Of a stretch of 64,000 bases of DNA, positions 3,145 through 64,000 are shown in pieces. The DNA comes from Anaerolineae bacterium (GTDB taxonomy: Bacteria > Chloroflexota > Anaerolineae > Aggregatilineales > J027). The translations under genes and the position numbers were made by a program. How positions within the stretch are numbered: position 1 is the stretch's first letter; every line of letters begins with the position of its first letter. The notes under the pieces were generated by a model. That model searched no databases, was not told the DNA's origin, and saw nothing but the letters and a program-made list of their open reading frames with translations. Where the stretch lies: NCBI GenBank assembly GCA_019913005.1, contig JAIOHL010000252.1:124001-188000 (forward strand), read 5' to 3'.

Positions 3145-6100
3145 CTAAGGGAGAATAGTGGAGCAGGTCGGGGATATGAGGCGACCAAAAAATTGCTGTT
3201 GCTCGTGCTCGGTAAGGTTGCGATTGGCGATGCGGCACGCATCCGACATCCATGTGGTGATGCCTGTTTTCCAAAACTGAATGGCCCCCATACGATTGGC
3301 TGAAATTATCTGATGGGTCGTTTCATCAAAGACGAGGCTGGTAAACCACTGATCCTCTTGTTCAAAAGGCTCGCCTAACATACTGCGTGACGCAACATCC
3401 CACCAAATGATTTGCCCGCCACGTCCACTAGAGATAAGTTGGTCTCCATCGTTCGTAAACGCCAAATCCGTTACCCAATTGTTATGGCCGATAAGAAGGT
3501 CGGCGGAACGTGACGAAAGCCTCCAAAGGCGTATGGTGTTATCGCGGCTGCCGGATGCCAGATAGCGACCATCTGGGCTAAAAGCCAACGACGATACACT
3601 GTCAGTATGCTCTTCCAAAGTAGCGATAAGCTCTCTAGTGTCCACGTCCCACAGTCGAATCGTTTTGTCATGACCCGCTGTTGCCAGCACCTGACCATCT
3701 GGACCAAAAGCCAGCGCCAAAACACCCCCGGTGTGCCCAATCAAGGGGTCTCCAATGGGCTGACCTGTGGTTACATCCCAAAATATGACTTGACCATCTT
3801 CGCTGGCTGAAACCAAAAGTTGACCATCCGGGCTAAAGGCTACTGACCACACAGGGTTTTGGGCAAGGGTGGATACCACCATGCGTTTTTGCGGTTGAAA
3901 GTTAGCAGTCTCCCATAAAATGATCGTCTGGTCGGCACTGCCAGAGGCCAGCCATGTCCCGTTGGGGCTAAAGGCGACACTGGTAACTGGGCCAGCGTGT
4001 TCTGTCATTTGGGCGACTTGGCGATTTTCGACTGTATCCCAAATGCTGACGGCATCAATTCCGTCGTCTTGGGTAGGGCCACCTGACGCCACTCCCAGCA
4101 AGGATGAATTGGGTTTAATCGCAAGATCGTTGATCAACAAGCTGGTTTGTATTTCATCAGAGAAGAACCTGAGCAGTGCCACGTCATTGCCGTCAGTAGA
4201 AACAAGAAACTGCCCATCTGGGCTAAAGCCGACACTCCACACTTCATTTTGGGAGATCTGGATTGGGACTGGAACAGATTGGTTGGCGGCAACAGGCCAA
4301 AATTTGATTGTTTGATCTACACTTGCCGACGCCAATAGGTTGCCGGACGGGTCGAATGTTAGGCTACGTATCCAATCGGTGTGGGCCTCTTCAAAAGTGA
4401 AGATGGGGGTCGTGTTTTCGCCATCTAAACGCCATAAAATGATAGACTCGTCTGCACCCGCCGAAACCAGCAGTGACCCGGTAGGATGAAAGGTAACTGC
4501 AAATACCCAATTGGTGTGGGCCGTAAGCGGTTCGCCAATTTCCTTCCCGGTTTTTACATCCCATAGGCGGACGGTATTATCAGCACTCCCGGAGGCTAAA
4601 ATCGTTCCATCGGGGCTGAAGGCGACGCTGTAGATAATATCGCTATGGCCTGCCAATGGCTCATCTATTGGCTTTTGCGTTGCAACATCCCACACTTGAA
4701 TAAGTCCTGCTTCACCACCTGCTGCCAAAAACTGACCGTCTGGGCTAAAACTGACACTCCACACCGAGCCGACACCTGCCTCAAGGGGTAGACCAATCAT
4801 CTGACCACTGGCAACATCCCACAGACGTACCGTGCTATCAGCACTTCCCGAAGCTAAAACTGTACCATCCGGGCTAAAGGCAAGGCTGTTAACCCACCCT
4901 TCATGACCCGTCAATAAAAATTTCTGGGTATGACTGCTGGCATCCCACAAAATCACTTGGTTATCGCGTCCACCGGAAGCAATGTAATGACCATCGGGGC
5001 TAAAGGTCACGGTGCGGATTAAATCGGTATGCCCATGCAAATAGGCTTCAAGGCGCGGCTCAATTTGCAGCGTACTCAACAAACTGTTCCGTGCTTCATA
5101 CGTGTCGGATATGCGCAGTGCTTCTAAACTGAGCAGCAGCGCCAAATCAATTTGATCGGCATTTGACAACGCAACCGCCGCTAATTCGCGTGATTGGGCA
5201 ACATGGGCCTGACGATTGGCGCGAGCACGCTCGCGTTCAGCCTGATTCGCCCGATCTAATCCCAATCCCGCCAGAATGATCGCAAGGACGGTTAACGTGA
5301 TTAGCGCTCCTGCAATCAGTCTGCGATACCACATGAGGCGGTTGCTGAGTGCAATACTTGCTGAAAGATAGGTGTGCTCGTCCGTAGACAGATTGACCAT
5401 CTGATGAACGGATTTAGTAAGGGATTTGAATTGATCTAATCTTGCCCCGCGTGCCAAGAATCCGGTGTCTCGATTTGCTTTTAGCCAATCTTGGGTGTTT
5501 GAGGCTAACTGCCGTTGTATTCGCATTTCATCACGGCTAGTTTCGATCCATTGTTGGAGACGATCCCATTCACGAATTAAGGCTTCATGGGCAATTTCTA
5601 CGGTTGGGGCGCGGGTAACAGGGTCACGATCAAAGGTCAAAAAACGCTGCTTATAAAAAATGTCCAGCACTTTTTGAATGGCATTTTTGCGTTCAGGGGA
5701 TTGTTCGGTCAATAGATCGGCTTGAGCAATGCGGCGGCGGACTGGCTCTGAGCCTTCAATAATCGAGATCAATTGCAGAAAAATCATCTGCGCTAATGTT
5801 TTTTCTTCGGCGTTAAGTGTCAAATACAGTTCATCGGCCCGGCGCGTCAGTGTGCCTGTCAGCCCTCCCAAACGGCCATATGTATCGAGGGTCAGGATAG
5901 AGGTGTGACGGTTCTCAAATAATTCTGTGAGGGTATATTGGAGCAAGGGCAGTGCCCCCGGCTGGCGAATGACATCCGCGATGATCGTGGCGAGTAGAAC
6001 GGATTCAAGGGTGATATTAGTACGCTGGGCGGGGCCGATAATGGCATATTCTAGTTCTTTTGGCGAAAGTGGCAGAGCAACTTCGGTATGGGCACGAATC

Positions 6101-7599
6101 AGTTCCCCAAAACTGGGATACAACAGCGGGCGATCATAAAAATCGGCGCGTAAAGTAATCAAAATATGGAGGTGGCTTTGGCTATCTTGAACCGCATTGA
6201 CAATATTGCTTAGGAAATAATTTCGCTCGACCTCGCTGCTCACGGAGGTGAAAACTTCTTCAAATTGGTCAATGAAGATGACAGTCTCGCTTTGTGTTTG
6301 TTCAAAGATTTTCTGACCAATGTTTTTTAGGCTATCCAAACACTCTCTATCGAAGTGAATATTCTCAGAATCGGTGGCAATTTGGAGCAAGCTGACTTCG
6401 AGTTCTCGAATGGGATCAGCGCCCGGTGTCATCGTCAAAAAGAAGCTGTTTCGAAAGAGTGGGGCCGCTCTGTTCCTTAATGTGGGAATCACCCCAGCAC
6501 GCACCACACTCGATTTACCACTCCCACTTGGCCCCACCACCGCCAGAAATGGTTCGGTTTCCAAACGACTCACAAGTTTGACGATGAGTGTTTCTCGGCC
6601 AAAAAAATCAGCCGCATCAACCTCTTCAAACGCGCGTAAGCCTTTGTAGGGGTTTCGCACAGTTGATGCGTCTTGCTCAAACACCATGGTGCCAAGCTGC
6701 TGGCTCTCGATGACCGTCTGTTTAGCAGTTTCCCCCAGTGAGGTGGTAGCAGATGGCAGTTGGCTGACAATATTGGCGGCATTGTAGAAAGCCTCCGTTA
6801 ATTCAGCTACTGACCTAAATCGGGCGGCGGCATCCTTATAAGTCGCTTGCCAAATCACCTCATTCATTTTTTCGGGAATATCGGGTCGCTGCAAGGACAC
6901 TGGCGGGACATTGCCATATACATGACCTTGGATAAAGTCCTCGCGTGTTTTTCCGATAAAGGGTAGCACGCCAGTTAAAAGCTCATAGAGCATAATTCCC
7001 AGACTGTAGATGTCGCTGAGGGATGAGGTCGGCTTTCGCATTAATGCTTCGGGTGACATATATTCAGGCGACCCTAAAACATATTTCGCCATTTCTGGAA
7101 CTTCATCAAGCAAGGACTTGGCGATGCCGAAATCAGAGAGATAGGCATTTCCTTGTTCATCTAGGAGAATATTGCCGGGTTTAATATCTTGGTGGACTAC
7201 GCCTTGCGAATGGGCGAAATGGAGCGCGGAGGAAATTTGGGTTAATAGACCTGCGATGGAGCTTACAGCGAGGCCTTTGGGGTTCAGCAGAACCAATTTG
7301 GCAAGATTGCCCCCGCGTAAGAACCGCATCACCAGATAGGCTCGATCAGGTTCACGCCAATAGTCATAAAGGGGCACGATGTAGGGATGCTCCAGACGAG
7401 CAACCACATGCGCCTCGACCTCAAACTGACGTATAAAATGGGGGTTGTTCGCGTATAGGGGGAGAATTACTTTGATGGCAACATCACGCTCAATGACGGG
7501 TTGATAGGCCCTGTATACACTTCCAAACCCACCCTTACCAATCAGCCCACCTAGTACATATCCTCGTATCGTCTGCTGAGAAGATTCCTGATCGTGCAT
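3145..7599 (-). CDS. Ser/Thr protein kinase fused to a STAND-type ATPase and two WD40 propellers
   Basis: A roughly 1484-residue signalling protein. Order: Hanks-type kinase (about residues 12-270) with GKGGFGSVY, lysine K43 in DVAIKVI, catalytic loop VVHQDIKPGN, SDFG, and GSPEYMSPEAL; then NPYKGLRAFEE and the P-loop VVGPSGSGKSS of a novel-STAND NTPase (about 330-700); a transmembrane segment near residues 756-778; a short coiled region rich in Arg/Ala; and about 14 WD40 repeats (each ending LWD/FWD/IWD-like), enough for two seven-bladed propellers. The catalytic loop has HQD instead of HRD. ATG at 7599 is preferred over TTG at 7602. Only 15 bp separate it from the FHA gene, so they are probably co-transcribed. 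It likely senses an extracellular ligand through the propellers; that is inference. Confidence 0.93.
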   Translation of the reverse strand: MHDQESSQQTIRGYVLGGLIGKGGFGSVYRAYQPVIERDVAIKVILPLYANNPHFIRQFEVEAHVVARLEHPYIVPLYDYWREPDRAYLVMRFLRGGNLAKLVLLNPKGLAVSSIAGLLTQISSALHFAHSQGVVHQDIKPGNILLDEQGNAYLSDFGIAKSLLDEVPEMAKYVLGSPEYMSPEALMRKPTSSLSDIYSLGIMLYELLTGVLPFIGKTREDFIQGHVYGNVPPVSLQRPDIPEKMNEVIWQATYKDAAARFRSVAELTEAFYNAANIVSQLPSATTSLGETAKQTVIESQQLGTMVFEQDASTVRNPYKGLRAFEEVDAADFFGRETLIVKLVSRLETEPFLAVVGPSGSGKSSVVRAGVIPTLRNRAAPLFRNSFFLTMTPGADPIRELEVSLLQIATDSENIHFDRECLDSLKNIGQKIFEQTQSETVIFIDQFEEVFTSVSSEVERNYFLSNIVNAVQDSQSHLHILITLRADFYDRPLLYPSFGELIRAHTEVALPLSPKELEYAIIGPAQRTNITLESVLLATIIADVIRQPGALPLLQYTLTELFENRHTSILTLDTYGRLGGLTGTLTRRADELYLTLNAEEKTLAQMIFLQLISIIEGSEPVRRRIAQADLLTEQSPERKNAIQKVLDIFYKQRFLTFDRDPVTRAPTVEIAHEALIREWDRLQQWIETSRDEMRIQRQLASNTQDWLKANRDTGFLARGARLDQFKSLTKSVHQMVNLSTDEHTYLSASIALSNRLMWYRRLIAGALITLTVLAIILAGLGLDRANQAERERARANRQAHVAQSRELAAVALSNADQIDLALLLSLEALRISDTYEARNSLLSTLQIEPRLEAYLHGHTDLIRTVTFSPDGHYIASGGRDNQVILWDASSHTQKFLLTGHEGWVNSLAFSPDGTVLASGSADSTVRLWDVASGQMIGLPLEAGVGSVWSVSFSPDGQFLAAGGEAGLIQVWDVATQKPIDEPLAGHSDIIYSVAFSPDGTILASGSADNTVRLWDVKTGKEIGEPLTAHTNWVFAVTFHPTGSLLVSAGADESIILWRLDGENTTPIFTFEEAHTDWIRSLTFDPSGNLLASASVDQTIKFWPVAANQSVPVPIQISQNEVWSVGFSPDGQFLVSTDGNDVALLRFFSDEIQTSLLINDLAIKPNSSLLGVASGGPTQDDGIDAVSIWDTVENRQVAQMTEHAGPVTSVAFSPNGTWLASGSADQTIILWETANFQPQKRMVVSTLAQNPVWSVAFSPDGQLLVSASEDGQVIFWDVTTGQPIGDPLIGHTGGVLALAFGPDGQVLATAGHDKTIRLWDVDTRELIATLEEHTDSVSSLAFSPDGRYLASGSRDNTIRLWRLSSRSADLLIGHNNWVTDLAFTNDGDQLISSGRGGQIIWWDVASRSMLGEPFEQEDQWFTSLVFDETTHQIISANRMGAIQFWKTGITTWMSDACRIANRNLTEHEQQQFFGRLISPTCSTILP

Positions 7600-7614
7600 C
7601 AAACGGACAGCCGC

Positions 7615-8628
7615 TTATTCTATGATGATTTCGAAAGGACTGGTCAGGATCAATTTGATCAGTGGCTCGATTTTTTCAAAGAATGCTTTTTTCTTTTCTT
7701 CCTCTAGGTTATTTGCTCCGAACTGCTCAAGCATAATGGAAGCTAGTTCTGTGACTACCTGATCAATATCGGCTAAACCCGACAGATCAACCATTGCTTG
7801 AGGTGGAAGTGTCTCTTCGGGCGAAACTTGGATACCTTGAAGTTTCCCTGAAAGTGCCTCCCGTCGTTTGCTAATTTCCTTCCGACTAAATTCAATGGCG
7901 TTATAGGCCCCAACTAATTTGGCTTGGATCAGGGCACGTTCTTTATCGAAGCTGACGGCTTTAATCTGCATCGAGGGGGAGGGTTGATCTTGGACAACAC
8001 TGATGCAGGCTTCGATTTCTTGGATAGAGTTAAGCAAATTCAAAAGACCATCTGAGAATAGATTGGGCGTCAACCCCATATTGAGGCCGCCGCGCGTATC
8101 TCGCATGAGCAGAGTCTGTTCAGATAGCTCTACGGACTGAAAATAGACAAACATCAGAAGTTGGCCGAGTCGAATAATATCACCACTTTTGAGTGACTGG
8201 CTCTGGTGAGGGAGCAGTTTTGACTCGTTTACCCACGTGCCATTGCTGCTGCCTAAATCTTGCAACGTAACTTCTGATCCTGACACTTTAATCTTGGCAT
8301 GTCGGCGCGAGACACCGGAGAGATAGCCGTAAAATGGATTCAAGTCAACGTCAGGGGGAGGAAGTCCATCTTGATAGCGACCCAGCAAGATTTCTTCTTT
8401 GATGGCTAACTTAAGCGGCTGACCAAAACCGGGCACATAAATCGTGAAAACACCCGGCTGGGGTGAAAAGGGCGATGGTTCAACCGGAGAGAGTGCCATA
8501 TCATCCGCAACAGCCACGGTTGTTGAAGATCGTAGCGGTGTCCCACATTTCTCACAAGCGGGTGCGCTGGTAGGATTTTGATGTTGGCAAACGGAACAAA
8601 TTATAAAATCTGAGGTGTTCAAATTCAC
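7615..8628 (-). CDS. Zinc-ribbon FHA-domain protein
   Basis: Phosphothreonine-binding adaptor, probably a partner or substrate of the kinase encoded next to it. The 337-residue protein opens with a zinc ribbon (CSVCQHQN...CEKCGTPL), has a Pro/Ser-rich stretch, and then an FHA domain (about residues 75-160) with the expected LLGRYQ, SRRHAKI, LGSSNGTWVN and GDIIRLG motifs. The C-terminal half is predicted helical and not recognised. Start codon is uncertain: GTG at 8628 lies only two bases after GAGG, while TTG at 8622 has GAGG at eight bases, so translation may start at 8622. It sits between the secreted FecR-like gene and the kinase on the same strand. Confidence 0.9.
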   Translation of the reverse strand: MNLNTSDFIICSVCQHQNPTSAPACEKCGTPLRSSTTVAVADDMALSPVEPSPFSPQPGVFTIYVPGFGQPLKLAIKEEILLGRYQDGLPPPDVDLNPFYGYLSGVSRRHAKIKVSGSEVTLQDLGSSNGTWVNESKLLPHQSQSLKSGDIIRLGQLLMFVYFQSVELSEQTLLMRDTRGGLNMGLTPNLFSDGLLNLLNSIQEIEACISVVQDQPSPSMQIKAVSFDKERALIQAKLVGAYNAIEFSRKEISKRREALSGKLQGIQVSPEETLPPQAMVDLSGLADIDQVVTELASIMLEQFGANNLEEEKKKAFFEKIEPLIKLILTSPFEIIIE

Positions 8629-8658
8629 TTCCTCTTGCTCCCTAAAAGGAAAACGGAA

Positions 8659-10371
8659 TTATTTTCTGCGGCGCACTACCATGATCAGAGACGTAAGAAC
8701 TAGAGCACCCCCCACCGCCATTGGGGTTGCGGCAAAGCTCATCCCTTCTTGTTCACCTACTTCATCATTCGGGTTGCCGTTGCCATTCCCGTTGTTGGCA
8801 TTATTGCCGTTCCCATTGTTGCCGTTATTCCCATTATTTTGGTTACCGGTTTCGGGAGTAGGCTGGGTCGCAGAATTATTGTTGGCGTTGTTGCCATTTC
8901 CGTTGTTGCCGTTGTTCCCATTGCCATTATTTTGGTTACTGGTTTCGGGAGTAGGTTGGGTCGCAGAATTATTGTTGGCATTATTGCCGTTCCCATTATT
9001 CTGATTGTTGTTTACGGGAGCGGACTGATTGCCGTTGTTGCCATTGTTGGTTGCTGCGGAGTTCGACTGATTTACATTGGCAGCTTGGCTAGTGCTATTC
9101 CCATTTCCATTCCCGTTATTCCCATTATTGCCGTTATTGCCGTTATTGCCATTGTTGGGAACTGAGTCCGGTGGGTTCCCATTTGAGTTGCTGGGCGGGT
9201 TTCCGTTGTTGCCGTTATCATTATTGCCGTTGTTGCCAGTGCCATGATTCCCATTGTCCCCGTTGTTTTCTTTATCTTTTTTGTCTTTTTCTTCGCTGGA
9301 TTCTTCAGTTTCAGCGGGTGGGACAATCTCAATGGGTTCAGTTAGCAAGTCAATCGGGAGGGCCTCAATATCTTGAGACTCGTAGGCGGTTGGCTCATTG
9401 GGTACATCGGCGGGTGTCAGATCAGCAGTCATCGGAATTTCGATCTTTTGGCCTGCCGGTACTTCATATACCATGCCGCCTGAACTGACTTTGGCTTTGC
9501 CCTCCAACATTGTAATTTGCATGGTTTCATTGGGTCGGGCTTGAATAAAGGCCGTCGAGCCTAATTCAATGTTGACTTCATTGATGAGCAGGGTTACTTG
9601 GGCAACCCCTTCTGGCGTCTGAATCAGCAAACCATCCGAGGGAATATCGGAGCATTCATAGTCATTTGTCCCCGATTGTAGATAAAAGGCTTGCATTGGC
9701 GTCTGGTAGGGAGTTTCGCCATCTGTCACCGTCAATGTTGCAATATCAGCCACATCTCCAACATGGCTTGTAGGTATCCAGCCTCGGACTGTGCCATCCA
9801 TGGATTCTACCCGTAACCATGTACTATCACTTGTGCGGCCAGTCGCCTTAAGCTGCTGATTGGGTGTCGCAAAACCGATGGTTTCCGCAATTGGCCATGG
9901 TTGGGCGAGTATTGGAACTTCATCTTGGCCGTCTACTGTTATCTCAATCACCGTAATGGCGGGGATGGCGTTTTCAACCTGAACATCCCCAAATAGAATG
10001 ACGGTAACATTTTGGGGCTGCGAAGATGGAATATCCGCTTGTAGATAGAGTTGAGCGATTCCCCAGATGTTTTCTTGTGGATCAAACGGACTAAGCCTGA
10101 GCGACTTCAACGACGCCACTTCGACAATATCACCCGGTTCATCAAATTTGAATGGGCTAGTGTCGTTTTGCGGTTCGGCATTCACCAATAGGTTTCCGTA
10201 ACATGCCCTATGGCGACCAATCCCCGTGCAAAGACGTTTAGCAGCTTCTAAGGCAGTCTGGACGGTATCAGAACAAGCGCGAGGGTCATCTTGAGCCTTG
10301 GATGAATCTTGAGTCAATGACATGAATATCGCAAGGAGAACCAATATTGTGATGAGCTTGATGAATTTCAT
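8659..10371 (-). CDS. Secreted, membrane-anchored SH3/FecR-like protein with Asn/Gly-rich region
   Basis: 570-residue cell-surface protein of unknown function. A signal peptide (MKFIKLITILVLLAIFMSL...) is followed by a Cys-containing module ending RACYGN, a region resembling a bacterial SH3 fold (WLRVESMDGTVRGWIP), and a FecR-like segment (ALIQARPNE-type strands, LEGKAKV, VPAGQKIEIP). Next come an acidic/Lys stretch and about 180 residues almost entirely of NGN/NNG repeats with two copies of a SATQPTPET block. The C-terminus is one hydrophobic helix plus RRRK, as in wall- or membrane-anchored proteins, but no LPXTG is visible. AGGAG lies nine bases before the ATG. A paralogue lacking the repeat region is encoded at 19711-20991. 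Confidence 0.85.
   Translation of the reverse strand: MKFIKLITILVLLAIFMSLTQDSSKAQDDPRACSDTVQTALEAAKRLCTGIGRHRACYGNLLVNAEPQNDTSPFKFDEPGDIVEVASLKSLRLSPFDPQENIWGIAQLYLQADIPSSQPQNVTVILFGDVQVENAIPAITVIEITVDGQDEVPILAQPWPIAETIGFATPNQQLKATGRTSDSTWLRVESMDGTVRGWIPTSHVGDVADIATLTVTDGETPYQTPMQAFYLQSGTNDYECSDIPSDGLLIQTPEGVAQVTLLINEVNIELGSTAFIQARPNETMQITMLEGKAKVSSGGMVYEVPAGQKIEIPMTADLTPADVPNEPTAYESQDIEALPIDLLTEPIEIVPPAETEESSEEKDKKDKENNGDNGNHGTGNNGNNDNGNNGNPPSNSNGNPPDSVPNNGNNGNNGNNGNNGNGNGNSTSQAANVNQSNSAATNNGNNGNQSAPVNNNQNNGNGNNANNNSATQPTPETSNQNNGNGNNGNNGNGNNANNNSATQPTPETGNQNNGNNGNNGNGNNANNGNGNGNPNDEVGEQEGMSFAATPMAVGGALVLTSLIMVVRRRK
8740..9290 (-). repeat. Asn/Gly-codon low-complexity tract with a duplicated 65-bp unit
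   Basis: The part of the surface-protein gene that encodes NGN/NNG runs is a degenerate triplet-based repeat. Within it 8831-8895 and 8924-8988 are nearly identical 65-bp blocks with a 93-bp (31-codon) period, both encoding SATQPTPET plus flanking Asn/Gly. Such tracts change length by slippage or recombination, which would vary how far the protein projects from the surface. Confidence 0.85.
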
Positions 10372-10899
10372 AATGCAATGCTCCTACTACCAAAACTTCG
10401 AGCTGCCTACTAATAGTTATATCACAAATTAGCTGGCTTTTCGGAAAATTTACGTTCTTTACAAACACACAAGGGTTTCCTATGGGGGTCTCAGATACAG
10501 ATGAAGCTCTGTATCCCCTCAAGCAATGGTCATAGGGGTGCTGCGGTGATGGTGTGTTTGGCGGTATGCCCCTAAAACTGAGATTATAGCCCACGATCTA
10601 TCCATTTGCCCACAGTGAAACAGACCCTGAACCGCTAACACGCGCTCCCCATCAGGGTCTTTCCCACTTATTAGAGTCAATAGCTTATCCACAACGATCA
10701 CAATTGGAAATTTCGATAACGACTGCCTAGAGAGGGGTTTGGCAGGGAGAGTGTTTAGCTCCCCCTGCACCATCTGAAGTCAGCCATTACCAGTGACTTC
10801 AATCGGTAGTGTACCACACCTTTTGGTACTGCCGATTTTTGAAGGAATCACTGAAGGCAAATCGAAGTGTGTTCGGGGTTTACCATCAGGAGGATAGCT
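10372..10899. other. 528-bp non-coding, hairpin-rich leader upstream of parA
   Basis: No convincing gene is seen; the short frames here lack ribosome sites and family signals. The stretch holds several foldable elements: a stem GATACAG (10494-10500) / CTGTATC (10509-10515) inside an outer CCTATG/CATAGG pair (10479-10484 and 10531-10536); AGACCCTGA near 10621 pairing with TCAGGGTCT near 10655; an 8-bp inverted repeat TGAAGTCA (10775-10782) / TGACTTCA (10794-10801); and the terminator-like hairpin at 10801-10840. The left part also contains the promoter region of the minus-strand surface-protein gene. It marks the switch from chromosomal-looking to plasmid-like genes. Confidence 0.6.
10801..10840 (+). 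terminator. Terminator/attenuator-like hairpin before parA
   Basis: AATCGGTAGTGTACC (10801-10815) pairs with GGTACTGCCGATT (10825-10837) with one two-base bulge, and five T residues follow on the plus strand. This is the form of a rho-independent terminator. It lies 60 bp upstream of the parA start on the coding strand, so it either ends a short upstream transcript or acts as an attenuator for parAB. Confidence 0.6.
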
Positions 10900-11730
10900 A
10901 TGACCCCAGTTTTTGTACTCACCAATCATAAGGGCGGCGTGGGGAAATCCACGTCCGCAACGAACATCGCGTTTGGTATCTCCCAAATGCTCGCCCAGTT
11001 CGGCGTCGCCAATCATCGCGTATTGTTGATTGATACCGACAGTCAGGGACATGCCACCCTCGTCACTACCAGTCGGAATAATTTCGGACGGGATGACAGC
11101 CTATATGCGGTGCTGAATGCGGATCGCCGCGACGCCGCTACCGTTCTGAAGGAATGTATCGTCGCCAGTGAGTGGGATGCCAATTTGCATGTATTACCCG
11201 CTTCGCCGTTACTCGAAGCCGCCGAACGCGAACTCATCGCCGTACCCGGTGCGCCCTACCGATTGTCGGAACCCCTCAGTCAGATTGCCAGCCACTATGC
11301 GGCCATTGTGATTGACACCCGTCCTTCCTTCTCCCTGCTCACTGAAATGAGTCTCATCGCCGCGACGGATGCGCTCATCCCAATTGAGCCACGTTATTTG
11401 GAAACTATCGGGTTGGAGTCAGTGGTCAATAAGATCGAAGCCATTCGACAGGGCTGGCGCTGTCCTGATCTCAAGGTGGGTGGGATTATTATCACCAAAC
11501 TCGACAAACGCATGAAGGGACATGTCGAGATGCTAGATGGCCTCAAAGCTCATCCAGTGTTAGGCCGCCTGTTGTGTGGGGTGATTCCTGCCAATGAAGC
11601 AGTCGCTTACGCTCATCATGCCCACAAGAGCGTGTACGAATACAACCCCGAATGTCCGGCCAGCCAAGCCTATGCCATGCTCGCCGCCCAACTCATCAAA
11701 AAAACACTGGTGATTAGAGGGGGTGTGTAA
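10900..11730 (+). CDS. parA: ParA-family partition ATPase
   Basis: DNA-segregation ATPase that binds the nucleoid and moves ParB-bound DNA. The protein (276 residues) has the deviant Walker A box KGGVGKSTS near the N-terminus, LLIDTDSQGHAT (A' motif) and the Walker B-type strand AIVIDTRPSFS. Translation from ATG at 10900 is preferred over the upstream frame because a perfect AGGAGG (10888-10893) sits six bases before it. Its stop overlaps the parB ATG as TAATG, so the two are translationally coupled. Gene order parA-parB-palindrome-primase is plasmid- or ICE-like rather than the chromosomal parAB beside gidAB, which points to a mobile replicon. Confidence 0.93.
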   Translation: MTPVFVLTNHKGGVGKSTSATNIAFGISQMLAQFGVANHRVLLIDTDSQGHATLVTTSRNNFGRDDSLYAVLNADRRDAATVLKECIVASEWDANLHVLPASPLLEAAERELIAVPGAPYRLSEPLSQIASHYAAIVIDTRPSFSLLTEMSLIAATDALIPIEPRYLETIGLESVVNKIEAIRQGWRCPDLKVGGIIITKLDKRMKGHVEMLDGLKAHPVLGRLLCGVIPANEAVAYAHHAHKSVYEYNPECPASQAYAMLAAQLIKKTLVIRGGV

Positions 11731-12932
11731 TGGCGAAGAAATCAGATACCCCCAATCGTATCAATAGCCTGCTGCAAGATGTGGGGCAGATGATGATTCT
11801 GAATGCCGATCCGGCTGAACGATTGCAGGACACCCATCTGCGGGTTGAAAACTTGCCAATTCAACTGGTGCGGCCTGATCCAGCTCAACCCCGTCGTGTG
11901 TTGCCCGAAACGATTTACCAAGCGTTTCACCAGCAGCACCTCACCCCCTATCAAGCGCTCAAAGAACTCGTTCAATTGGTGCAAATCGCCGCCCGCCAGA
12001 AAGGGCGGCCTTTCACCCATATCTTGGATTTGCTGCCTAATCCCAATGATGAGAGTGAAACAGATACCCCCGTCACTCTCACCCCTGAAGAAATCCTGCT
12101 GCGGGATTTGGTGAACTTGGCAGTGACCATTCGGGATGATGGGCAGGTCAACCCGCTGACAGTGGTGGATAAATCCGAGGGGATGACGCACATCTACCAG
12201 ATTGAGACCGGAGAGCGGCGTTACTGGGCGACTTGGCTGATGATGGAATTCTTGCCGGGGTATCAAGGCGATGGTTCCATCCCCTGCATCATCGTCCCAT
12301 CCAATCGAGCCTCGGTATTCCGTCAAGCCAAAGAAAACACCTCACGCGCTGGACTGAATGCGATTGCGATGGCACGCCAAGCAGCACTACTCGTTCTCGC
12401 CGCTCATCAGATTCGGCCACCTGATGGGCCAGTCTCAAATGACTACTATCGGCAGGCACTTGAACTTGATCTGCGTTCCAAAAGGGAATATTCAGCCGAC
12501 ATTCTTAGTGCAATGGGAGGACTTAGTCGGGCACGATTCAGTCGAATCAAAGCATTGATTGGGCTATCAGACGAAGCCATTGAAATTGCAGATCGTCATG
12601 ATTTAGATGAGGCACGTCTGCGATATGTACTCGCATTACCTGAAGATCAACAGGCGGAAATGGTACGCCAGATTATCGAATACGGTCTTACACGCAAACA
12701 GGTTGAGGAGATGTGTCTAATGGATGACGAATCTGACAAATCAGAAGAAACGGTTCTCCCTTCAGAGATTCGTAGAACAGTGAAATTGTTGCGTTTAACA
12801 GTGAATGTTGATCCCTATGAAACCGCGAAGGCTTTATTCGAGGCGGAAGGGGACATCTATACTGCTCGTATTCATCTTCAAAAACTGCGGGCGTTTATTG
12901 ATGAAGTGGATAAGCGTCTACTTGGTCAATGA
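11730..12932 (+). CDS. parB: ParB-like partition protein
   Basis: Centromere-binding partner of the ParA encoded just upstream. The 400-residue protein has the ParB/Srx N-terminal fold: LPIQLVRPDPAQPRR, then TIRDDGQVNPLTVV and the nucleotide-contacting box GERRYWA, in place of the classical GERR(L/R)RA. A helical DNA-binding middle follows (AMGGLSRARFSRIKALIGL, helix-turn-helix-like) and then a helical C-terminus for dimerisation. About 100 residues longer than many ParBs because of an insertion between the first strand and the GERR box (residues about 65-125). The gene ends at the edge of a perfect 26-bp palindrome that is a natural candidate for its binding site. Confidence 0.88.
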   Translation: MAKKSDTPNRINSLLQDVGQMMILNADPAERLQDTHLRVENLPIQLVRPDPAQPRRVLPETIYQAFHQQHLTPYQALKELVQLVQIAARQKGRPFTHILDLLPNPNDESETDTPVTLTPEEILLRDLVNLAVTIRDDGQVNPLTVVDKSEGMTHIYQIETGERRYWATWLMMEFLPGYQGDGSIPCIIVPSNRASVFRQAKENTSRAGLNAIAMARQAALLVLAAHQIRPPDGPVSNDYYRQALELDLRSKREYSADILSAMGGLSRARFSRIKALIGLSDEAIEIADRHDLDEARLRYVLALPEDQQAEMVRQIIEYGLTRKQVEEMCLMDDESDKSEETVLPSEIRRTVKLLRLTVNVDPYETAKALFEAEGDIYTARIHLQKLRAFIDEVDKRLLGQ

Positions 12933-12957
12933 AATTGTTGCCCCGGGGCAACAATTT
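12932..12957. promoter_or_regulatory. Perfect 26-bp palindrome, candidate parS centromere
   Basis: The half-site AAATTGTTGCCCC is followed without a spacer by its exact reverse complement, centred between 12944 and 12945. It begins on the last base of the parB stop codon. With no loop and no T-run it is a poor terminator. ParB sites are typically perfect palindromes of 14-16 bp or longer near parAB, and the inner GTTGCCCC/GGGGCAAC has the GTT...AAC outer bases also found in canonical parS. Assignment as parS is inference. Confidence 0.6.
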
Positions 12958-13167: not shown

Positions 13168-15516
13168 ATGTCCAATGAATCTTTGATCGTTCAGGCCGCC
13201 CAATCGAATACCATTCTGGATGCCGCTTTGATGTATGCCCGATTAGGCATGAGTGTCATTCCCCTCAAAGGCAAACGCCCGTCTTTAGCTAGTTGGACAC
13301 AATTTCAACAAATTCGCGCCGATGCCGTGACGATCCATCGCTGGCAGCGAAATGGGTTGCTGCAAAATGTCGGTATTGTGTGTGGCAGCGCCTCGCAAAA
13401 TCTAGTGATCTTGGATGCCGATGGGCCAGCGAGTTACGCCGCCTTTGCTGCAACCTTTCCGAAATTGGCGGAAACCTATACGGTTGCAACGGGCAGCGGG
13501 AAAGGCCATCACGTCTATTTTTATGTGGAAAATCTGCCTGACAGTATCAAGGCGATGAATCTACCGATTGGCAATTTGGAATTGTGTGCAGATGGACGGC
13601 AGGTAGTCGCACCGCCCAGTCGCCATCCGGTGACGGGGAATCCCTATTGTGTACATAAACCGCTGGATATTCTGCGGGTGGAAACACTCAATGAATTAGC
13701 GGAATGGATCGAGTCATTTAAGACCAAGCCTCTAGCTGCGCCAGCCCACTTTACTCCAACGCCTCCAAATCATTCCACTAAATTGAATCCCAAAGTGATG
13801 GAAGAAATCGAGCGATATTTTTTGCAGCAGGGTTATCGAGAAGTCGGCGAGTGGCTGCATGGGCCGTGTATTTACCCTCATCGGCATCAACATGGTGATC
13901 GTAACCCGTCCTTTGGCTTCAATCGCCTCAGCGGATTTGGGTCGTGTTTTGTCTGCGGCACGATTTTGGCGAAAGACATCTGTGCGGCGGTGGGACTTGA
14001 TGTCAGTACCCTCGGAGGGCTGGTTGGGAATTTTTCAAAGACAAATCCCCCTCACCAGCCCACAGCCGTTAGGCTGTCTTTACCCGTGAATGAGCCGCTA
14101 ATCCCCCAAGAAATCCAACCTCACAGTATCACTTTTCCTCCGACGATGCCTCCAAGCGACCTACCACCTTTTGAGCCAAATTTTGGAGTATCTATCCATG
14201 ATCTAAAACTCCCTAACTGGCTAAAAATTTACGTGGAATGGGCCGGAGCAACGGGTAATCAGACACCTTTATCATTCCATCTTGCAGCGGGATTATGGCT
14301 GTTATCCGTCGCGGTGGGACGGCGCTTGTATGGATCAGCGCCTTGGGGAGTGAAGATTTTCCCGAATCTATATTTGATGCTCATCGCGGCGACGACTTAT
14401 TATCGCAAATCCACCGCGTATAAATTGGCTGAGGGTATCGCACTTGAGGCCATTCCTCATATGTTGATGGCAACGCCGGGTTCCCCTGAACGCTTTCAAG
14501 AGGCGCTGGCAGGTCAACTACCCGGTAATTTTGACAAGCTCAATCCAACGGAACAGGAGCGTTTTCGCAAAGCCCAACCCTTTGCCGCCCAACGTGGTTT
14601 GCTTAAAGATGAGGTCGCTGGTCTATTCAGCGCCATCAACAAGAAAGACTATATGACAGGCATGAAAGATTTGTTGATGGAACTCTATGATTGCCCTGAT
14701 CGCTCTAGCAAAGAAACCCAATCTGGGGTCACGATTGTTGAGAACGCCGCTTTATCCATTCTGGGGGTGACAACTCCCGCAGGTTTGGCATCCGGCGTGA
14801 GTGAGGCAGATTGGGCTAATGGCTTGCTGGTACGTTTCGCCTTAGTTACGCCAGAATTGGATTACACTGAACGACCATCTGCAATTACCTATCAACCACC
14901 CCCGCCAATACTCATTGAAGGCTTACGTCGGTTACATGACCGGCTGCCGAATCCTGTCCAGACTGAACGGGGCCTGATTCCACCAGCAGCGCTTGAATTA
15001 GATGTCGCTTGCTGGTTAGAGTGTCAAAACTATGGGGACCGCCTGCGCCGCCTGTGTGCGCCGCATCAAGATACTGAATTGGATGAACGCCTCAAGGGTG
15101 TCTATGGGCGTTTGCATGTCCAAGCCTTCAAACTTGCCACATTGATGGCGGCTTTGGATTGGCTGGATACCGATTTGCCAGCGCCGATGCTCACGGTTGA
15201 CCATTGGTCAATGGGAGAGGCGATAGTGGAAACGTGGCGGATGAGTGCCCATCGTTTGATTGAGCAGATGGACAGGCGAGGCGAGGCCAGTCATGAGCGC
15301 CGCCAGCAAGACACGTTATTACGAGCGATTCGGCAAACTGGAATGGAAGGTGTCAGCTTAAGAGTGCTATATAGGAACCTGCATCTGACGGCCCAACGTG
15401 CCCGGTTTTTGACCCAAGAGCTTGTACGAGCAGGTCTAGTAGTAGAGCAACGTTTAGGCGGGATTGAATCGTATATCGCCAGCGAATATGCCTTATCTGA
15501 GAACTCTCCGATATAG
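13168..15516 (+). CDS. Bifunctional primase-polymerase (prim-pol) with DUF3987 helicase-like domain
   Basis: Replication protein of plasmid/ICE type. Start at ATG 13168 is preferred over the longer frame because AGGAGA lies seven bases upstream and the prim-pol fold begins directly after it (782 residues). Domains: prim-pol (about 12-190) with the catalytic D83-A-D85, SGKGHHVYF and GRQVVAPPSRHP; a CHC2-like zinc finger (about 230-270, CIYPHRHQHGD...FGSCFVCG); a DUF3987-type ATPase-like domain (about 340-600), where the P-loop position reads AATTYYRKSTA and so is degenerate; and a C-terminal winged-helix-like tail. It would prime and extend DNA at a plasmid origin. The mirrored repeat array starts five bases after its stop. 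Confidence 0.88.
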   Translation: MSNESLIVQAAQSNTILDAALMYARLGMSVIPLKGKRPSLASWTQFQQIRADAVTIHRWQRNGLLQNVGIVCGSASQNLVILDADGPASYAAFAATFPKLAETYTVATGSGKGHHVYFYVENLPDSIKAMNLPIGNLELCADGRQVVAPPSRHPVTGNPYCVHKPLDILRVETLNELAEWIESFKTKPLAAPAHFTPTPPNHSTKLNPKVMEEIERYFLQQGYREVGEWLHGPCIYPHRHQHGDRNPSFGFNRLSGFGSCFVCGTILAKDICAAVGLDVSTLGGLVGNFSKTNPPHQPTAVRLSLPVNEPLIPQEIQPHSITFPPTMPPSDLPPFEPNFGVSIHDLKLPNWLKIYVEWAGATGNQTPLSFHLAAGLWLLSVAVGRRLYGSAPWGVKIFPNLYLMLIAATTYYRKSTAYKLAEGIALEAIPHMLMATPGSPERFQEALAGQLPGNFDKLNPTEQERFRKAQPFAAQRGLLKDEVAGLFSAINKKDYMTGMKDLLMELYDCPDRSSKETQSGVTIVENAALSILGVTTPAGLASGVSEADWANGLLVRFALVTPELDYTERPSAITYQPPPPILIEGLRRLHDRLPNPVQTERGLIPPAALELDVACWLECQNYGDRLRRLCAPHQDTELDERLKGVYGRLHVQAFKLATLMAALDWLDTDLPAPMLTVDHWSMGEAIVETWRMSAHRLIEQMDRRGEASHERRQQDTLLRAIRQTGMEGVSLRVLYRNLHLTAQRARFLTQELVRAGLVVEQRLGGIESYIASEYALSENSPI

Positions 15517-15520
15517 GGAA

Positions 15521-15683
15521 TGCGACCAATGCGACATATGCGACACGCGACATTGCGACAAAATCGGACTTATCGTGCTTGTAATATTATGTAATATATT
15601 TAGATATTAAGTCAAATATTTCTATATCACTATAAAATACCCTTGTCGCGCTGTCACATGTCGCATCTGTCGCGTTTGTCACA
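15521..15683. repeat. Mirrored GCGAC iteron array around an AT-rich core, candidate replication origin
   Basis: Left arm: GCGAC-type units starting at 15521, 15530, 15539, 15546 and 15554 (spacings 9, 9, 7, 8). Right arm: reverse-complement GTCGC/GTCAC units at 15645, 15653, 15660, 15669 and 15678 (spacings 8, 7, 9, 9), an exact mirror of the left spacing. The two arms align as an imperfect inverted repeat of about 45 bp with roughly 80% identity. The centre, about 15580-15640, is strongly AT-rich, as expected of an unwinding element. The array follows the prim-pol gene immediately. Iterons plus AT-rich DNA next to a replication gene is classic origin architecture; the function is inferred. 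Confidence 0.65.
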
Positions 15684-15723
15684 TTAAATGGGGGGGAGTG
15701 GTGGAAGGGATAGTAAGGCCGAG

Positions 15724-58571: not shown

Positions 58572-60395
58572 ATGGCACGTAAGAAGAAACTGCGTCTTAC
58601 CCTTACCCCCGGTTGGGCTTTATACCTCCGTACAAGCGATGAAGAGGCCCAAGCCCCTGAGAGATCCCAAGCCAGTCAGCGGCGTATGATTCATGAGCAG
58701 TTATGCACCAATTCGGATGTGCCGATTGTGGCGGAATATGCCGATACATTTAGTGGGCGGGCAACGGACCGACGGAGCTATCAACATTTAATGGCGGATG
58801 CCCGTTTGGGCAAGTTTTCGCATGTCGGTGTGGCGTTTGTAGATCGTTTTGGTCGCAATGATGTCGAGGGCATCCGAGCATTCGATGAACTGATTGACCT
58901 CGGCATTGTCGTTCGTATTGCCACCTATCCCAGCCTCGACCCCGCTACCCCAGATGGTCGCATGATTGTCGGTGTATTGTTCTCCGTTGCCCGTTATGAG
59001 TCTTTGCGGATTGGTCAGCGGTCACGTGAGGGCATGTATACCAAACTGCTTGAAGGTGGATGGAGTGGGCGAGCACCCGACGGGTATCTCAATTGTGAGA
59101 TGAAAACCAACATGGTCAGTGCCGCCGATAAACTCAAAAATGCCCGCTATAAACGTTGGATCGAAATTGACCCACAGCAAGCTCCGGTCTGGCGTTATGC
59201 GTGGGATTTATTGCTTGAAGATCGGCACTCGCTCGAAGAAATCTGCGAAATTCTGCATTCCAAAGGTTATAAACTCCGTAGCGGCGCGTCCTTTGTCAGC
59301 GTAGGGTCGAATGGTTTACGGCGCTGTAATGCCGGGTCGGTATCACGGATATTTCACAATTGGTTTTACGCCGGATGGGTGGTGTCTGATAGTGAATTGG
59401 GGGCTATTCCGCCCAAAACCATTCGCGGACATTGGGAGCCGATTGTCAGCACTGAAGAATTTGAGGTTGGGCTGGCTATTTTGCAACGCCGCAACCAGCA
59501 GCGGGTTCATCAACGCAAGCATTTCTATTTGCTGCAAGGCTTGATTTATCTACGGATGCCCAGCGGACGACTTGCTAAATTAAGCTGCGCCATGCCCAAT
59601 GCCAATCGCGCTCGTGGTGGGGTGAAATATTATTGTCTCGATCATGGTCACTACTATTTCCTTTGCCGCCGGGTGGATGAACAAGTTACAGATTATCTCC
59701 AAGCCGTGCAAATTGACGGGCGTTGGATTCCCAAACTGCGTCGGGCCTTTGAAGATGACATTGACCAGTTGTTGGGGCCGAATTATGGCGATCAGCGTCC
59801 ATCGCTCCAAGAGGCTTTACGGGGGATTGAAGAGGAAGAATCGCGCACGGCCCGTTTGTATGCGTCAGGTCGGATTACGGACGATGTTTGGAATATGTTG
59901 TGGGCTGAATGGCAAGATCGGCGCGAAACCATCCGCCGAACGCTGACGGATTTGGATAAAAGTCGGCATTTGCATCTGGCAAATTTGGACGCCGCACTCT
60001 CGATCATCACAAAACTGGGTATACTTTATAATAAGGTAGACAAAGAAAGTCAGCGGGATTTGCTCCGGCATATCATTAAACGAGTGGTCATTAATGTGGA
60101 AGGCAAGATCATAGAAGTGGAACTGCGTACCCCTTTTACCTACCTGCGTTCATTATTGGGCGGTGACGAATCGTCACCATCTCATAATGGGTCGCGGGGT
60201 ATAGCAGAAAAAGTTGTGGGCAATCAAGCAAAAACTAGCGCGATGGCTGGTTCAGTACAAGCACATGGTTTTGCCCCCGGCGGGATTCGAACCCACGACA
60301 CACAGTTTAGGAAACCGCTGCTCTGGCCTCTGAGCTACGAGGGCAATAGTCTCAATTACAGTCTAGCGAAAATCAGTTGCGGTTGGCAAGCCTGA
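58572..60395 (+). CDS. Large serine recombinase (integrase)
   Basis: Site-specific recombinase. The 607-residue frame starts with the resolvase domain: WALYLRTSDEE with nucleophile S22, AEYADTFSGRATDRRSYQHLM, VAFVDRFGRND and MIVGVLFSVARYESLRIGQRSREG. The recombinase domain (about 150-310) has the GWSGRAPDGY motif. A zinc-ribbon-like region follows (LSCAMPN...YYCLDHGHY...FLCRR) with fewer Cys than usual, then a coiled coil (about 420-475). The last about 45 residues, from residue 565 on, are translated from an antisense tRNA-Arg and beyond (PGGIRTHD...), so the natural C-terminus probably ends near residue 530-565. GAGG precedes the ATG. Confidence 0.9.
   Translation: MARKKKLRLTLTPGWALYLRTSDEEAQAPERSQASQRRMIHEQLCTNSDVPIVAEYADTFSGRATDRRSYQHLMADARLGKFSHVGVAFVDRFGRNDVEGIRAFDELIDLGIVVRIATYPSLDPATPDGRMIVGVLFSVARYESLRIGQRSREGMYTKLLEGGWSGRAPDGYLNCEMKTNMVSAADKLKNARYKRWIEIDPQQAPVWRYAWDLLLEDRHSLEEICEILHSKGYKLRSGASFVSVGSNGLRRCNAGSVSRIFHNWFYAGWVVSDSELGAIPPKTIRGHWEPIVSTEEFEVGLAILQRRNQQRVHQRKHFYLLQGLIYLRMPSGRLAKLSCAMPNANRARGGVKYYCLDHGHYYFLCRRVDEQVTDYLQAVQIDGRWIPKLRRAFEDDIDQLLGPNYGDQRPSLQEALRGIEEEESRTARLYASGRITDDVWNMLWAEWQDRRETIRRTLTDLDKSRHLHLANLDAALSIITKLGILYNKVDKESQRDLLRHIIKRVVINVEGKIIEVELRTPFTYLRSLLGGDESSPSHNGSRGIAEKVVGNQAKTSAMAGSVQAHGFAPGGIRTHDTQFRKPLLWPLSYEGNSLNYSLAKISCGWQA
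60273..60344 (-). tRNA. tRNA-Arg (anticodon CCT)
   Basis: On the minus strand the 72 bases fold into a cloverleaf. Acceptor GCCCTCG/CGGGGGC; D arm GCTC/GAGC; anticodon arm GCGGT-TTCCTAA-ACTGT with anticodon CCT (reads AGG, Arg); five-base variable loop; T arm GTGGG-TTCGAAT-CCCGC. CCA is not encoded. Its 3' end (60273) faces the recombinase side, as is usual for elements inserted at tRNA 3' ends, and the whole gene lies antisense inside the recombinase frame. Confidence 0.93.
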
Positions 60396-60403
60396 AGTTT
60401 GGA

Positions 60404-61870
60404 CTAATTACTCTGACCAACCCACTCCAAAAAGACTTCATCGAGTTCTTGCTCCCATGAGGCTTCTAGAACGCTTTGTAGGTCAGTTGGCGTGGCGATT
60501 TGATAACGATAGGCTATAAAGTAGGCGTTCAACCCTTGAATTAAGGCCGCTTGCCCATAGGTGTCTGCTAGGAATTTGAAAAACAATGGCCCTTTGGCAT
60601 AGACAAATGAAAAATAAGCCGCACCCTCATAATCGCTTGGTGTTAAGCCAATAACCCTATCCCCATTTTCCGTGCTGAAATTCTGCCACGAGTCAGTATA
60701 ACTATCGAAAAATTCCTGCTGAAAATCCGGGCCATAGACTTCACCAAAATAGAGGACGGTTGCATATTGGGCCAACGATTCATCCAACCAAGGATCACGG
60801 GTTTGATCGTTGCCGACCAACGAATACCACCATTGGTGGGCGACCTCATGAACCGTCACGATTTCCAAATAGAGGTCTTGTGTGTTCCATGATTCAGATT
60901 GCACTACCACGAGACCGGGGTATTCGATACCACCTGCCACCGTGCGGGTTTCCACCACATCTAGTTCAGCAAAGGGGTATTCCCCAAAATGGGCATTGAA
61001 GATTCGGACGGCATCCTCAGCAAAACGAAGCGCGGTGTTTGCAGCTTCATCACCCCCACTGAAATAATGCACATCAATGGCGATACCATCCTGCTCACCA
61101 CTGACCGTCTCATACTGCGTGCTTGCCATCAACGCAAAATCCCGCATCAAAGGGGCGACGTAATGGTGTGTGCGGGTTTGGTCGGCATTGTCAGTGCTGG
61201 CGATGCGTGTACCGCTGGTAATCAACACCCATTTGGCGGGGGCAGTCAGTGTGACATCAAAATTCGCGGTGGCACTATAAACTGCATCGCCTTGTGGATG
61301 GGCCACATTACGCCACCAGCCTACGCCTGTTTCGTAAACCGAGAGCAAAGGGAAAAAATTCGGTAGGGCCAAATTTCCACCCAGATAGCTGTATTGGGCA
61401 TACAAAACGGTCTGTTCCGCAAACACGGTAGACGTAAAATCTATCGTGACCAGTGTTTGTTCGCTGGGGAGCAGCGGCGTTGGCAGGAGGATGCTGATAA
61501 TCGAGACCGTTGGGTCGAGTTTAGGTGTCACGGTTGTTCCATTCACCAAAACGTTACTCACCGATGCTTGTCCGCCATAGGAAGGGTAATTGGGATACAA
61601 GCGAAAAACAATTTCACTTAGAGTATCAGGGGATACGTTGGTATAGAGAACTTCCATATTTCCAGTGATGGTGGCTTGTTGGTCAGTAATGTCGAGCGAT
61701 GCCGTAATGGTGATTTGAGGAATGTCGGGAAAAGCGGCAATGTCCTGCTGAAATTCGGGTTGCATAGCTTGGCTAAATTGACCCCCATCTTGAGCATGGG
61801 CCATAGGATAGGTCGCCCACAACAGGCTGATTAAAACAAAGCTGACCAATATACGAGAATAGCTCATCAT
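60404..61870 (-). CDS. Secreted M1-family zinc metallopeptidase
   Basis: 488 residues with signal peptide (ILVSFVLISLLWATYPMAHAQ). The GluZincin motif is HEVAHQWW, with the second glutamate in WLDESLAQYATVLYF; VAGGIEYPGLVVV is the GxMEN-like exopeptidase motif of M1 enzymes in a changed form (GGIEYPG). N-terminal beta-sandwich typical for the family. AAGGGA precedes the ATG. It is the first gene right of the tRNA and so probably belongs to the core chromosome; two paralogues follow. Confidence 0.9.
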   Translation of the reverse strand: MMSYSRILVSFVLISLLWATYPMAHAQDGGQFSQAMQPEFQQDIAAFPDIPQITITASLDITDQQATITGNMEVLYTNVSPDTLSEIVFRLYPNYPSYGGQASVSNVLVNGTTVTPKLDPTVSIISILLPTPLLPSEQTLVTIDFTSTVFAEQTVLYAQYSYLGGNLALPNFFPLLSVYETGVGWWRNVAHPQGDAVYSATANFDVTLTAPAKWVLITSGTRIASTDNADQTRTHHYVAPLMRDFALMASTQYETVSGEQDGIAIDVHYFSGGDEAANTALRFAEDAVRIFNAHFGEYPFAELDVVETRTVAGGIEYPGLVVVQSESWNTQDLYLEIVTVHEVAHQWWYSLVGNDQTRDPWLDESLAQYATVLYFGEVYGPDFQQEFFDSYTDSWQNFSTENGDRVIGLTPSDYEGAAYFSFVYAKGPLFFKFLADTYGQAALIQGLNAYFIAYRYQIATPTDLQSVLEASWEQELDEVFLEWVGQSN

Positions 61871-61952
61871 TCTGTCCCTTTTAATAACAAAGGCGAGTCC
61901 ATTGATGTATGACCCGCCCTCATCTCAATTCGATTACACGAGAAAAATCAGC

Positions 61953-63599: not shown

Positions 63600-63699
63600 G
63601 TCCCCTCATCCTTCCAAACTGAAGCTATATAAAACTCAAAGAGAGGCTTTGATTTGCCCCTCAACGATACCATATTCAGTGCCTAATTGACATGGCAGA

Positions 63700-64000
63700 T
63701 CAATCGGCTTCCTCCCGATCTACAGCGGCTTTCGCCTCGGGATCAAGACCGGGGAAGTCGCCAACCCATCGGTAGAAATACGCATCCAAATCTTGACCGG
63801 ATACCTGCTCAAACACGCGGAGTAAATCAATCGTGGTGACGAGTTGATATTTCATTTCACTCACATAAGTTCGCAGGGCTGCATAGACCGTCTCGCGTCC
63901 CAACATTTCCTCTAGGCCGACATAAAACAATGGGCCTTTGGTATAGGGTAAGAGACAGCTATTTTGCTGCGGACATTCGACCCAGTTGATGGTACTTAGT
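63700..64000 (-). CDS. M1-family metallopeptidase, C-terminal part (gene continues past the window edge)
   Basis: Open frame from the window end to 63700, with no start inside the family. The visible about 100 residues (INWVECPQQNSCLLPYTKGPLFYVGLEE...DAYFYRWVGDFPGLDPEAKAAVDREEAD) are close to the C-terminus of the protein at 61953-63599 (LPYTKGALFYVELE...DAYFYEWIGDFAGLDPEAKAEVDKE). It is therefore a third, recent paralogue. The catalytic part lies outside the window. Confidence 0.85.
   Translation of the reverse strand, partial: LSTINWVECPQQNSCLLPYTKGPLFYVGLEEMLGRETVYAALRTYVSEMKYQLVTTIDLLRVFEQVSGQDLDAYFYRWVGDFPGLDPEAKAAVDREEAD

Follow-up and report, generated by a model that had tools for sequence, protein, structure and literature searches.

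A conserved mirrored iteron array directly 3′ of a Prim-Pol/DUF3987 gene: a candidate replication origin of a plasmid-like integrative element in Chloroflexota

What role does a mirrored array of short repeats play immediately behind a replication gene that is integrated in the chromosome of a Chloroflexota bacterium? The array in question lies at 15521–15683 of the window, i.e., the whole 64-kb stretch of DNA analyzed here, which is part of a 271-kb contig, and it starts 4 nt past the stop codon of the rep ORF (13168–15516, forward strand). The left arm (15521–15560, forward strand) consists of five YGYGACM 7-mers at 15521, 15530, 15539, 15546, and 15554, corresponding to spacings of 9, 9, 7, and 8, and the right arm (15644–15683) is inverted, with units on the reverse strand at 15644, 15652, 15659, 15668, and 15677 and spacings of 8, 7, 9, and 9. 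The two arms enclose a core of 83 bp with 77% AT (15561–15643), which is a candidate melting site. The original prediction of five plus five GCGAC-type units with these spacings around an AT-rich core is exact, the units being of the form GYGAC.

The array is real and far beyond chance. An inverted-repeat search returns it as one 43-nt inverted repeat with 81% complementarity (arms 15519–15561 and 15643–15685, with 81 nt between them). Its inverted-repeat score is 23, whereas 60 dinucleotide shuffles do not exceed 11 and the stretches behind 27 other window genes do not exceed 10.5. The two-unit pattern has four matches in the 64 kb, all inside the array, where 0.26 are expected; the exact matches in the whole 7.6-Mb genome are three, also all within the array, and the one-mismatch background across the genome is similar to that of a reversed-pattern control. 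The AT content of the core is reached by 0.02% of the 75-nt windows in the 64 kb. The pattern scan found no second array elsewhere in the genome.

The protein encoded by rep combines a Prim-Pol domain (PF09250, 5.5e-23), a DUF3987 putative helicase domain (PF13148), and a C-terminal winged helix. The former two are the only Pfam domains in Rep; the winged helix, comprising approximately residues 703–775 (15274–15492, forward strand), comes from the structure model. In the AlphaFold model it is built of helices 705–723, 731–737, and 742–754 and strands 758–763 and 766–771. The best structural match of the primase domain is 1rni (ORF904 of pRN1). The model is poor across the helicase (mean pLDDT of 63), in which the motifs are an invariant degenerate Walker-A-like one (T409-T410-Y412-R413-K414..T416 region) and LLKDE. 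Archaeo-eukaryotic primases (AEPs) fused to DUF3987, a predicted helicase, are described in integrated elements in the available part of PMC5862659, where a C-terminal winged helix is also proposed to read the origin in PolpTN2. The window Rep resembles these proteins of mobile elements in its AEP–DUF3987 fusion and in its location in an integrated element; unlike here, the origin sequences of the DUF3987 members are not discussed in that part of the paper.

Judging from the sequence, we consider it highly probable that a plasmid-like integrative element starts its replication at the array and that the adjacent Prim-Pol/DUF3987 protein binds there through its winged helix. In the mechanism that we propose as the simplest one, the C-terminal winged helix of Rep would bind the GYGAC iterons on both arms, and, since the arms are oppositely oriented, the Rep assembly on one arm would face that on the other, with the AT-rich core between them. 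The core would then melt, the DUF3987 ATPase would act as a self-loading helicase, the Prim-Pol domain would make the primers, and replication would ensue. Since the 33 bp spanned by an arm amount to about 3.1 turns of B-DNA, the five sites wind about −308° in all around the helix. One may speculate that five or six subunits arranged as a spiral would match this winding.

The classical iteron plasmids (P1, RK2, and pSC101) have long direct iterons of about 17–22 bp and an initiator of the Rep_3/TrfA type; in the window, unlike in these, the units are of 7 bp and in two orientations, and Rep has no Rep_3/TrfA-type domain. The suggestion that the array represents a new type of origin could not be sustained, as the PICI/SaPI origins (EcCICFT073 and SaPIbov1; PMC6092414, Fig. 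2 legend, and PMC7581432) already have a set of iterons on each side of an AT-rich region, immediately 3′ of the gene for a primase-helicase. The window shares with PICI/SaPI an origin candidate directly 3′ of a primase/helicase gene, short iterons in two sets around an AT-rich region, a Rep with a C-terminal DNA-binding domain (predicted here), and the location in an integrated island. Unlike in PICI/SaPI, the window Rep is a Prim-Pol fused to DUF3987 rather than a DUF927 or D5-type (D5/Primase_Cterm) protein, the arms are mirror-spaced, the element carries ParA-ParB and a candidate parS, no phage-satellite genes were recognized among the Pfam-scanned genes of the island, and compact members of the Rep family lack the AT-rich core. 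The putative origin of SCCmec Cch2 likewise has short, 5-nt iterons 3′ of a helicase gene, which are bound by the isolated C-terminal domain, nearby inverted repeats being dispensable for binding (PMC7581432). The C-terminal domain would be the reader in the window as well, but Cch2 has three direct iterons only and belongs to an unrelated helicase family. What is new here is accordingly that the putative initiators belong to the DUF3987 family and that their arrays share a conserved spacing, together with the exchange of a cassette and a possible two-residue/two-base recognition code.

Orthologues of Rep with 84–93% identity are present in three further genomes of the genus (L017 = CFX10, L018 = CFX5, and L019/L070 = NC_groundwater_1614). 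Four species-level genomes (that of the window, L017, L018, and L070) have the array at this locus, and the mirrored spacing is the same in all of them; the gene neighbors are common to these loci, in L070 on the downstream side only, plus ParA-ParB. The core diverges fast between the orthologues (44–48% identity) while the arms stay; its length is 83–109 and its AT content 62–77% across the window and the three orthologues. Judged by this conservation, the array is functional, and because the spacing geometry is conserved, it is probably functional too.

In 154 genomes of the order, more than 30 close relatives of Rep were found, at least six of them in the window's own genome. Outside the order, distant relatives matched over the helicase part only, and the plasmid, phage, and viral collections gave no close relatives, only distant primase/helicase matches or none. 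Every close relative whose 3′ end is readable has a short-repeat array immediately behind the stop codon, and most of these arrays are mirrored; the inverted repetition is above all 60 shuffles in 23 of 31 family members. The repeat words across the family are GCGAC, GTGAC, CCGAC, MTGAC, and GCGAAA (the iteron of L052 could not be assigned, and L052 was excluded from the trees). The proposal of an origin beside the prim-pol/DUF3987 gene is supported by this constant position and by the joint change of the repeat word and the DNA-binding domain discussed below. Neither of the two outcomes that the original prediction had named as refuting it was seen: the array is conserved beside homologous genes, and this genome has no array at any other place.

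The geometry is likewise retained in part. Of the 28 left arms with at least three units, 22 have 9 as their outermost spacing, the 9, 9, 7, 8 spacing of the left arm (span of 33 bp) recurs with GTGAC in L072, L078, and L082, and the 8, 7, 9, 9 spacing recurs with CCGAC in L062. In L072, L078, and L082, both arms span 33 bp, but their spacings of 9, 9, 7, 8 and 8, 8, 8, 9 are not an exact mirror. Exact mirroring had been taken to argue for a two-fold symmetric assembly; the conservation of the spacing is in line with this, but the exact mirror identity is not universal, so that a two-fold complex can be suggested rather than deduced. The AT-rich core is specific to the window clade, the core being 1–17 nt in most relatives, and its absence from most compact paralogues counts against the origin assignment. 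As a separate observation, compact members have a small HU-like gene just past the array (L078:6936-7295 and L067:7413-7799), which is not present in the window clade, where the AT-rich core is found instead.

The pRN1 plasmid requires a region 3′ of its Prim-Pol gene, and its origin is described as a stem-loop, of 100 nt (PMC4234260). The window Rep is of the same gene type as ORF904, to which it is similar in the Prim-Pol N-terminus (ORF904 being the closest solved structure), the winged-helix C-terminus, and the origin region 3′ of the gene, whereas DUF3987 takes the position of the SF3 helicase of ORF904. It is therefore conceivable that the arms pair as a cruciform or hairpin and that the primase-helicase recognizes this structure and not the iteron sequence, and the paralogues L056 and L059 have perfect palindromes. 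We regard such a mode of recognition as unlikely. L057 is an imperfect palindrome despite the perfect one of its close relative L056, L058 retains a single arm only, and in L072, L078, and L082 the arms are out of register with every unit kept. Over their full length, the arms of the latter three are unable to pair in register, an argument for double-stranded iterons rather than a hairpin; a long stem-loop like that of pRN1 is not conserved in the family. In the window itself, the arms are imperfect copies, with 29 of 35 iteron positions and 3 of 5 spacer positions complementary, and pairing beyond the units can therefore not be judged there.

Autoregulation is frequent among iteron-binding initiators, and one could thus envisage an array that only represses or terminates the transcription of rep or the next gene and is no origin. 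The terminator-like look of the compact palindromic members would fit such a role, as would the position of the array just ahead of an HU-like or actin-like gene in several paralogues. We find this very unlikely, however, as the array lies after rep, the unit scan shows no array at either the rep or the parA promoter in the window, and no T-run follows the right arm in the window sequence. In addition, the gene after the array varies among the members (epimerase, HU-like, actin-like), whereas the gene before it is constant.

Close pairs of relatives with different repeat words (L072/L083, L074/L075, L080/L082, and L079/L082) were compared in terms of DNA identity, which drops from about 70–90% in the helicase to about 30–65% from about 200 nt before the stop codon through the array and rises to 80–90% in the next gene. 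The winged helix and the array are thus exchanged, or diversify, as one cassette, while the flanking genes stay alike; as the two are neighbors, their joint exchange may come from linkage. Two residues of the winged helix are candidate specificity determinants, N737 (15376–15378) and H739 (15382–15384, both forward strand). Residue 739 is His when base 1 of the iteron is G and Asn when it is C or A, in 30 of 30 rows, with nine concordant changes on the tree of the rest of the protein (helicase tree). The six independent pairs all agree (sign test, p = 0.03), which, because the array and the winged helix are linked, tests co-inheritance and not physical contact. With the tree built from the winged helix itself, the rule is consistent, but only three His/Asn changes are left, and the test is without power. 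Residue 737 is Asn when base 2 of the iteron is C and otherwise not, with one exception (L064), and the decayed copy L076, which lies outside these rows, fits both rules. That the winged helix and the repeat word are exchanged in step lies outside the original prediction and is the most valuable part of the analysis.

With rather less than even confidence, one may go further and envisage a replication-specificity cassette, made up of the last ~220 bp of rep and the array of ~100–170 bp, that would be swapped as a unit between similar elements. Its two-residue code would have His739 read G and Asn739 read C or A at base 1, and Asn737 read C and other residues T at base 2. Such swapping would spare several related replicons in the same cell any incompatibility, and one such replicon would now be a fixed and selected second chromosomal origin.

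The Rep gene belongs to an island of about 49.7 kb (10605–60267), which is a present/absent block since the sister genome G001 joins 4311–10604 directly to 60268–64000 (empty site). At the left end, the order is a ParA-like ATPase (10867–11730, forward), a ParB-like partition protein (11730–12932, forward), a candidate parS in the form of a 26-bp perfect palindrome, AAATTGTTGCCCCGGGGCAACAATTT (12932–12957), Rep, and the array. At the right end, a large serine recombinase with Resolvase and Recombinase domains (58572–60392, forward) lies beside a tRNA-Arg(CCT) gene (60271–60345, reverse), which flanks the right boundary. The block is thus bounded by a recombinase and a tRNA gene, as in a serine-recombinase integrative element. 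The same block is found at the same site in G004, with a recombinase 96.5% identical and a diverged polysaccharide interior; the polysaccharide genes vary between species far more than the island ends. The Pfam-scanned subset of the island genes consists of polysaccharide, partition, and recombinase genes. No attL/attR direct repeats were found, as the two boundaries share no run of 9 nt or more. This does not exclude an element, since serine recombinases may leave very short cores, but it is the reason why insertion into this genome is what we infer, with a deletion in G001 as the alternative. Upon circularization of the island, the recombinase would adjoin ParA; this order is seen on the paralogous contig L052, whose recombinase has no similarity to that of the window detectable by tblastn. 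It can also be mentioned that the ORF of the recombinase continues across the tRNA-Arg gene on the other strand, its C-terminal residues being translated tRNA, and that the end given here for the recombinase is therefore provisional.

In ParMRC plasmids, five plus five repeats are bound by the partition protein, and the ParAB genes upstream of the window array, together with the actin-like genes near some paralogues, raise the question of whether the array is a parC/parS-like partition centromere. This is extremely unlikely: the separate palindrome after parB is a better parS candidate, as paired substitutions have kept it perfect in each of the four orthologues, the arrays are found either with ParAB or with actin-like genes nearby, and the repeat word tracks the winged helix of Rep.

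The locus was also considered as a dominant chromosomal origin, which is ruled out: the GC-skew trend is unbroken across the array, with no turn on either the 271-kb or the 385-kb contig, and the DnaA genes lie on other contigs. The original assignment as a plasmid origin is borne out in part: in this genome, the Rep/Par module belongs to an integrated island, and the GC skew does not switch there. The origin may be active only upon excision of the island, or rarely. The chromosomal integration and the unchanged GC skew, as well as the existence of decayed paralogues (L055 and L076), could also indicate the remnant of an integrated plasmid with no present function. We consider this improbable in view of the strong purifying selection on Rep (dN/dS of 0.06–0.08 at dS of 0.44–1.4 among orthologues), the units kept while the core diverges, and the paired changes that maintain the parS palindrome. 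Two further genes were noted beside the island, one (3145–7602) for a 1485-aa protein with a kinase, an nSTAND1 NTPase, and WD40 repeats, and the other (8659–10371) for a 570-aa protein with long Asn/Gly low-complexity repeats, of which the first 355 residues alone align between species.

Mobile elements often carry DUF3987 proteins, which are only predicted helicases in the available part of PMC5862659; the array is a concrete candidate for their target DNA. The natural series of winged helix/repeat word pairs makes origin recognition, incompatibility, and assembly geometry testable on short synthetic DNAs, and the conserved 33-bp arm with its uneven 9, 9, 7, 8 steps sets quantitative limits to the way in which such initiators stack on DNA.

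Similar arrays are found outside the close family. A 21-nt piece of the right arm matched one viral contig (L209), where the repeats are upstream of a DUF3987 gene. Among 120 viral stretches with three GYGACA units, four have a DUF3987/Prim-Pol-like gene, and in three of the four the array is on the 3′ side of this gene at a distance of at most 140 bp. Unrelated viral contigs thus have iteron arrays at such short distances 3′ of DUF3987 or Prim-Pol/VapE genes, and on the viral contig L237 a mirrored GTGACA array (4740–4960), with units on both strands, lies directly 3′ of a Toprim/DUF5906 primase-helicase gene. In the reversed-pattern scan of viral contigs, the pattern lies no more than 106 bp past the 3′ end of a DUF3987-like gene at 7 of 64 loci, the array being 3′ of the gene in all seven that hold one (L330, L335, L343, L358, L362, L364, and L368; the genes were Pfam-checked in the first three). 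These seven use CACTGT-type repeats, and several look near-identical. Because the reversed pattern marks similar arrays with another word, the proximity to DUF3987-like genes cannot be expressed as forward versus control. The CACTGT-type arrays appear to be putative origins of this kind that use a further word, and arrays directly 3′ of primase-helicase genes look widespread. As a final observation, the distant DUF3987 helicases of about 540 aa (L086–L110) have TTGTCA/TGACAA-type repeats right past the stop codon, with the next gene immediately after.
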